Made by a program: the position numbers and the translations under genes
Notes under the pieces: generated by a model
What the model was told of the DNA's origin: nothing
Databases searched by the model: none
The model's input: only the letters and a program-made list of their open reading frames with translations
Shown: one piece after another, positions 20,151 through 20,290 of the stretch
How the letters are laid out: the number at the start of each line of letters is the position of its first letter
Position numbering within the stretch: the stretch's first letter is position 1
NCBI GenBank assembly: GCA_025449955.1
Contig: JANWIK010000002.1
Coordinates: 1-32,723 of the forward strand
Origin: Gemmatimonadaceae bacterium
Lineage (GTDB): Bacteria > Gemmatimonadota > Gemmatimonadetes > Gemmatimonadales > Gemmatimonadaceae
Direction of reading: 5' to 3'
Length of the DNA stretch: 32,723 nt

Positions 20151-20194
20151 GCTTGGGGAAGCGCTGCGCTTGGGGAAGCGCTGCGCTTGGGGAA
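20151..20194. repeat. 17-bp tandem repeat, 2.6 copies
   Basis: The unit GCTTGGGGAAGCGCTGC is present at 20151-20167 and 20168-20184, identical, followed by the first ten bases of a third copy at 20185-20194. It lies just after mutM and runs into the inverted repeat described next. There are no spacers, so it is not a CRISPR. Confidence 0.9.
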
Positions 20195-20290
20195 AGGGGA
20201 ACGGTGCACAGCGTGCGTGGGTCGTCCCTTGCCTAACCGGGTGCAGTCACCGTTCCCTTTTCCCTTGTCCCCAAGCGTCAGCGCTTCCCA
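20171..20290. repeat. Purine-rich inverted repeat between convergent mutM and rlmI
   Basis: Left arm 20171-20206 (through GGGGAAGCGCTG, CGCTTGGGGAA, AGGGGAACGGTG) matches the complement of 20248-20290 except for one single-base indel and a 7-base insertion. It could form a stem of over 30 bp and act as a bidirectional transcription stop between the two genes. Purine modules and a palindromic GGGGAAGCG...CGCTT core recur at the start of ruvX (26135-26270), suggesting a dispersed repeat family. Confidence 0.75.

Follow-up and report, generated by a model that had tools for sequence, protein, structure and literature searches.

The window analysed here is a stretch of 32,723 nucleotides, contig C2 of a Gemmatimonadaceae draft MAG (G000; 3.2 Mb, 225 contigs, 75% complete). 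In it, mutM (19345-20133, plus strand) and rlmI (20294-21466, minus strand), called with a small codon-usage script, converge on a modular palindromic element (Table 1). The boxes of the element lie 22 and 4 bp away from the two flanking genes; its outermost G-box contains the final mutM codons and the TGA stop, and part of that box (20123-20134) pairs with 20246-20257. Its overall plan, an imperfect palindrome around a loop, is made up of G-rich heptads (NNGGGAA) together with short hairpin modules.

The 17-bp tandem array has 95% matches and a score of 100, the highest of the 45 TRF rows in the window. The initial annotation had recognized this array but counted 2.6 copies, a figure that omits a degenerate first unit; TRF gives 3.4. 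A 7-nt tandem unit is confined to the inner arms (TRF 20253-20271), the period of the main array being 17. The inverted-repeat search returned arms of 17 nt at 94% (20190-20206/20248-20264) and of 18 nt at 89% (20184-20201/20260-20277). Merged by eye, these give arms of 34 nt (20173-20206) and 42 nt (20248-20289), the right one with about one additional heptad, which agrees with the arms of over 30 bp described earlier. The strand 20138-20300 folds with z = -8.9 as DNA and -8.2 as RNA, and none of 200 shuffles equalled it in either case. Repeat, gene-call and fold evidence agree on the annotated arrangement, in which a 17-bp tandem unit between convergent mutM and rlmI runs into an inverted repeat.

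Table 1. Features of the mutM-rlmI element and of the ruvX repeat (window coordinates).
Feature	Position	Strand	Evidence
Whole modular palindromic element, mutM-rlmI junction	20121..20289	.	inverted repeats, TRF array, fold, congener junctions
Outermost G-box GGGGAAACGGTGACGAC	20121..20137	+	repeat and gene calls
17-bp tandem array, consensus GGGGAAGCGCTGCGCTT, 3.4 copies	20138..20194	+	TRF
Inner G-rich arm GGGGAAAGGGGAACGGTG	20189..20206	+	inverted-repeat search
Central loop, 41 nt	20207..20247	.	inverted-repeat search
Inner C-rich arm CACCGTTCCCTTTTCCCTTGTCCC	20248..20271	+	inverted repeats and TRF
Terminal module TTCCC...AAGCGTCAGCGCTTCCC	20260..20289	+	boxed-module pattern
Hairpin module, 5' part of ruvX open frame, 11 residues when translated	26142..26173	-	boxed-module pattern
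C-rich heptad run, 5' part of ruvX open frame	26231..26268	given on +	TRF

A whole-genome search, as the initial annotation had proposed, found further copies: BLAST with 20121-20300 against its own genome gave 54 matches at E<=0.01 (self-match and both strands included). The boxed-module pattern TTCCC-N(4-24)-GCTTCCC occurred 140 times in G000 and 399 times in the congener G005 (GZL_HY_2_bin.132), against 7 and 5 matches of the reversed-pattern control. The counts in the other congeners (control in brackets) were 9 (5) in G004, 11 (4) in G003, 11 (22) in G001 and 18 (16) in G002; all six are draft genomes, and G005, like G000, is about 75% complete. At E<=0.001, BLAST across 60 genomes, G000 included, found matches in at least four, namely G000, G005 and, with a single weak match each, G003 and G004. 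In this search and in that for the 251-bp element described below, the best 13 candidates per genome were scored (40 elsewhere), and the counts are lower bounds. A scan of named genomes yielded 72 stretches, 69 of them in G005, two in LS_FP_2_bin.53 and one in Kiritimatiellae, which we treated as chance. At least two related bacteria, both uncultured, carry the family at places scattered between genes.

Its modules are 7-nt G-rich heptads and units of 17-18 or 25-27 nt bounded by GGGAA/TTCCC boxes. Family modules start with GGGAAGC boxes, and the 17-bp unit of the window is one of the short modules, repeated. The loci fetched for matches yielded 206 distinct intervals from one TTCCC to the next, at most 45 nt long, of which 59 measured 7 nt, 39 measured 17-18 nt and 46 measured 25-27 nt. 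Many modules of the two longer classes are short hairpins, the stem sequence of which varies among copies; a common G005 module, AAGCGAGCG..AGCGAGCGCTT, is not self-complementary. Extra-stable DNA mini-hairpin loops of the cGN(N)Ag type were considered as a unifying feature and rejected: among the listed matches a simple reader found them in 23 of 62 long and 21 of 26 short modules, a hand-picked set from which chance-like and heptad-joined rows were left out and in which some repeats were collapsed.

Counting three or more boxes as an element, 20 stretches of G000 held 13 non-edge elements, 8 in co-directional, 4 in convergent and 1 in divergent gaps, with none in predicted genes. The 69 G005 loci held 28 (13 co-directional, 9 convergent, 3 divergent and 3 in predicted genes). 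Convergent pairs flanked 13 of 38 intergenic elements versus 74 of 626 gene pairs (Fisher p 4.8e-4, on loci largely selected by matches; 4/13 and p 0.07 for G000 alone), and divergent pairs 4 of 38 versus 88 of 626 (p 0.37). As 16 of the 20 G000 stretches lie on match-bearing contigs and all G005 loci carry the pattern, densities in these sets are not estimates. Four G000 contigs chosen independently of matches (48 kb) contained no three-box element, and one of them contained a module pair (L156:2874-2963). Contig edges hold 33 of 61 G005 elements, which makes the repeats a probable cause of fragmentation in MAGs of this kind.

Several individual loci were noted in passing. At L148:16378-16549 (also L343 and L332) an element follows a putative SRP RNA gene, recognized by eye, and G003 and G004 have degenerate GGGAA/TTCCC boxes there. 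On contig C42 of G000, L143:2368-2574 is a 207-bp inverted repeat with long, near-perfect arms in a convergent gap, its sequence unrelated by eye. At L210 and L245 the flanks of the element continue as mutually inverted copies near contig ends, through either fold-back assembly or a real inverted duplication.

We compared the orthologous mutM-rlmI junctions, another step put forward in the initial annotation. The site is empty in G004 and G003, with 14 and 11 bp, respectively, between the two protein matches, and filled in G005, where the repeat lies beside both mutM and rlmI and the contigs break. In the window (20116-20133) the element replaces the final mutM codons and the stop, while G004 and G003 end mutM differently, and short. 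G001 has a different palindrome there, with TTGGTGG-like heptads. Both genes were located in 24 genomes besides G000, and in 17 of these the matches are no more than 91 bp apart. As a separate observation, the G010 junction (L092) is 368 bp long and made of repeat units that by eye have nothing in common with the window family; here the slot was filled independently.

Twelve G000 elements were then followed into the genus, a site counting as filled when it held two or more GGGAAGC/GCTTCCC boxes; this is a fairer test than the initial orthologous pairs, which were biased toward match-selected loci. In G005 both flanks were found at 6 of the 12 sites, the other 6 being unreadable, and 5 were filled, or 6 of 7 with mutM-rlmI added. 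No site was filled in G004 (0 of 11 readable) or G003 (0 of 7 readable). One lone box stands at the same site in G003 and G004, and GGGAA/TTCCC words short of a full box at a few others; at site 8, 613-1085 bp, the length of another gene, separate the two matches in G004 and G005. Filled G000/G005 pairs agree in position and differ in the number and sequence of their modules, so the shared sites look old and their contents look to have turned over; by eye, the order of hairpin modules is shared at two sites. In a tree of 11 proteins (1612 columns), G000 falls outside G005+(G004,G003) with support 82, which implies near-clean loss in G003 and G004, lateral exchange, or a wrong tree. The BLAST copies, the pattern counts against their control, the mostly intergenic location and the presence or absence in congeners together bear out the earlier proposal of a genome-wide family of small palindromic elements.

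Some copies carry a conserved core of about 100 nt, with 55 pattern matches when both strands are counted; G005 loci account for 51 of them and the two LS_FP_2_bin.53 loci for 4. The core pattern had no match in the examined G000 loci, the window loop (20207-20247) included. Selection on an RNA core was considered and rejected, as only 2 of 21 predicted pairs showed a retained double change in an alignment of 24 cores, which included two LS_FP_2_bin.53 sequences. At least 12 further places in G005 (13 of 250 candidates scored) match a 251-bp element of that genome at 92-94% identity over 246-251 bp, and in G000 there is one full copy at 85% and another at 76%. Several copies terminate in CTAG followed by TGRRSYGCRTCWGA. 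Allowing up to one mismatch, this TIR pattern was found (control in brackets) 57 (1) times in G005, 8 (1) in G000, 4 (0) in G004, 2 (1) in G001, 2 (0) in G003 and 0 (1) in G002, and 3 times in 54 genomes outside the genus, versus 30 for the reversed control. Facing TIRs are separated by 307-329 bp in G005 and by 226 bp in G004; in G000 the spacings are 331, 142 and 52 bp.

At two of seven TIR sites we observed a target duplication: the empty G004 site has a single CTAG, and the filled site is flanked by one at each end. These clean pairs are site A (L366 of G000 versus L398 of G004) and site E (L193 of G005 versus L404 of G004). At sites C (L387) and G (L194) the congener lacks both the element and CTAG; for L194 the TIR script scored, on the right side, a chance match outside the true CTAG end. 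Site B is filled in G005 as well and unreadable in G003 and G004, and at sites D and F both flanks were never in one place. Among 20 complete G005 elements, 4 had a TIR match on both sides, 2 on one side and 14 none within 74 bp; the CTAG-flanked shell may thus be a rider on the module arrays and not their origin. We read it as one vehicle of the family. For the window copy it is a candidate only: 20121-20289 has no TIR, the window is absent from the places with the TIR pattern, it contains CTAG solely at 5187 and 19308, and the empty junctions of G004 and G003 have no CTAG.

CTAG is scarce in these genomes. In 353 kb of G000 it occurs 57 times against 1058 expected (16 at stops, 26 intergenic, 15 in genes), in G004 26 times against 596 (4, 13 and 9) and in G001 29 times against 487 (6, 4 and 19). 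At 9 of 26 TIR ends inspected, the TAG of NTAG is the predicted stop of the flanking gene. IS630 inserts at the TA in CTAG, according to the title of Tenzen and Ohtsubo (1991) as cited in the ISY100 paper (PMC2170065). The family resembles IS630/Tc1-mariner MITEs in that a subset of its copies is non-coding, 52-331 bp long and bears TIRs with CTAG on both sides; unlike them, its TIR is unmatched to any named IS, and the window copy has neither TIR nor CTAG. An IS630-like mover is, on the CTAG/TA target, a lead only. Among the TIR places listed, no facing pair about 1-2 kb apart, as for an autonomous partner, was found.

Most probably the feature is what remains of a very small mobile DNA element, one that has stayed in place for a long time while its bricks were swapped, gained and lost. 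We put at roughly 60% the probability that it is an old copy of a lineage-specific, non-autonomous and non-coding mosaic repeat family, MITE/BIME-like, shell-less and remodelled by slippage. On arrival it would have been a MITE-like palindrome that a transposase mobilized in trans, and either its terminal repeats were then lost or the source copies may never have had them. Slippage during replication, together with template switching within the palindrome, could have remodelled it in place into the 17-bp tandem copies, which are consistent with the growth or slippage product that had been suggested for them. The insertion would have replaced the last codons of mutM and been tolerated because it lies at the ends of both genes; it may also affect the 3' ends of transcripts. 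The family looks new and its kind known: we found no published description in the open-licence literature, and one may be in print elsewhere. There were no viral contigs, and comparison with plasmids and phages gave no match. BOX elements of Streptococcus pneumoniae are modular, with an inner box in variable number; by description, the only level at which they were compared, the present family is like them a modular repeat, in another host.

Heptads also occur elsewhere in the Gemmatimonadaceae. We surveyed intergenic periods in 23 genomes of the family, using 60-kb samples of 19 and larger ones for G000, G001, G004 and G005. Period 7 was at the top, ties counted, in seven (G010, G021, G020, G001, G008, G024 and G026, the last three weakly), reaching 248 coincidences versus a median of 6 in G010; it ranked second in G000 and G025 and did not stand out in the remainder, G004 and G005 included. 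TRF likewise made it the commonest period of intergenic arrays (31 of 136, of which 12 in G010 and 6 in G021), and in genes 14 of 447 arrays had it. The heptads vary by genome and are frequently in inverted pairs. Arrays of other sequence (TGACTCG, GGCATCA, GCTCCAC, GGTGCTA and TTGGTGR) were seen at L272 and L292 (G010), L299 (G021), L281 (G025), and L158 and L164 (G001). Over-representation of heptamers in bacteria has already been published (PMC4692102, PMC4679880).

Heptameric G-rich simple repeats of the GGGAATC type could in principle have grown in place by polymerase slippage with no mobile step. The prevalence of period 7, both among the intergenic arrays (18 of the 31 from two genomes) and among the TTCCC intervals, speaks for such growth, as does the case of Xanthomonas. 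There, according to PMC4692102, GGGAATC repeats form convergent pairs that make up inverted repeats, keep mostly the same gene neighbours in two species while varying in length, and generally show no association with mobile elements. The present family resembles these and the GGGGA(C/T)T heptameric G4 repeats of Nostoc in its intergenic G-rich heptads, and those of Xanthomonas also in convergent pairs folding into inverted repeats and in mostly unchanged neighbours with lengths that vary between two species, but mixes the heptads with 17-18- and 25-27-nt modules, and some copies have the conserved core and CTAG-flanked ends. Moreover, the unit at mutM-rlmI is 17 and not 7 nt long, and no canonical G4 (four G-runs, loops of up to 7) was found on either strand of 20101-20300. 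The near-identical 246-251-bp copies of G005 and the CTAG on both sides at two sites call for a copying step, which makes slippage as the sole process unlikely.

The element might instead be a selected bidirectional 3'-end structure of mutM and rlmI, a terminator or an mRNA-protecting hairpin, that is repeated incidentally. Its strong fold, its boxes close to both genes, the convergent bias of the family and the persistence of the palindromic plan while modules change are all in keeping with such a role. However, a terminator scan of the junction, for a GC stem plus T-run, returned 0 sites against 0.3 expected, G004 and G003 lack the element, and most other genomes have short junctions here; we therefore regard this explanation as distinctly unlikely. 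Searched at the gathering score, Rfam had nothing on the element in the window or in three G005 loci. A SAM_alpha riboswitch match barely above that score, at L215:6267-6316 (minus strand), lies outside the element.

BIMEs are palindromic intergenic mosaics, and REP/REPIN families have a conserved head tetranucleotide next to the palindrome. The present family has many short palindromic extragenic copies (3 of 28 non-edge G005 elements being in predicted genes), and its mosaics of intergenic palindromic units in inverted pairs recall BIMEs and REPINs, the latter described in PMC3116915 as short palindromes in inverted pairs, mostly intergenic and in many copies. Unlike REPINs and BIMEs, it has several module sequences in place of one REP consensus. 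The partner REP-type transposase that the initial annotation suggested looking for is not supported: the PF01797 (Y1) search gave 0 matches in G000, G001, G002, G003 and G005, the last of which has the most copies, and one in G004, partial and with an internal stop, in a genome where the module pattern is near its control. The same search also matched in 5 of 14 control genomes. Since neither of the two rich genomes, each about 75% complete, yielded a Y1 transposase, and since CTAG on both sides at two filled sites is, to our knowledge, not expected of Y1 elements, membership of a REP/REPIN family moved by a Y1 (RAYT) transposase is not supported and seems highly improbable.

Returning to the reading as an old mobile copy, a wider scheme can be proposed tentatively, and we hold it to be possible though doubtful. 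Under it, the intergenic palindromes of Gemmatimonadaceae would share a lasting plan, in which heptads, alone or together with hairpin bricks, are mirrored around a loop at gene ends, but would spell it in a 7-nt 'alphabet' that is exchanged for another from species to species. In this genus the bricks would have been captured by a CTAG-targeting MITE. CTAG being nearly purged, and a large share of what remains in G000 lying in gaps or at TAG stops, insertion would be steered to gene ends and the stop restored. If so, the mutM-rlmI slot would be a natural record of alphabet replacement, with three unrelated repeat alphabets by eye (G000/G005, G001 and G010). For a small palindromic repeat outside model bacteria, the data provide a set of sites that are occupied, empty or remodelled, and they link three kinds of repeat that are usually kept separate: heptameric tandem repeats, BIME-like mosaics and CTAG-targeting MITEs. 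They also suggest a way in which insertion could be near-harmless, if the target word survives largely at stops and between genes and the stop is duplicated.

A second repeat in the window, at ruvX, had been assigned to the same family. The assignment is supported: ruvX carries on the minus strand a family module, TTCCC...GCTTCCC, common to both loci, but this lies inside the ruvX open frame, and no inverted pair was detected in 26080-26400. The N-terminal extension of ruvX is variable, and G000 and G005 carry repeat modules in frame there, G005 reading FPQNREAVRFP. The start codon of ruvX and the stop of rho overlap (window 26131-26278, minus strand; L349-L352), as ATGA in G000, G001, G003 and G004 and as GTGA in G005. 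Finally, among 7-mers seen at least 60 times, GCCTAAC and GTTAGGC were the two most enriched relative to base composition. In 353 kb of G000 they together number 507 versus 39 expected, with 452 of these inside genes, and the corresponding figures are 222 versus 20 in G004 and 136 versus 18 in G001; within genes they are mostly read as G-TTA-GGC.
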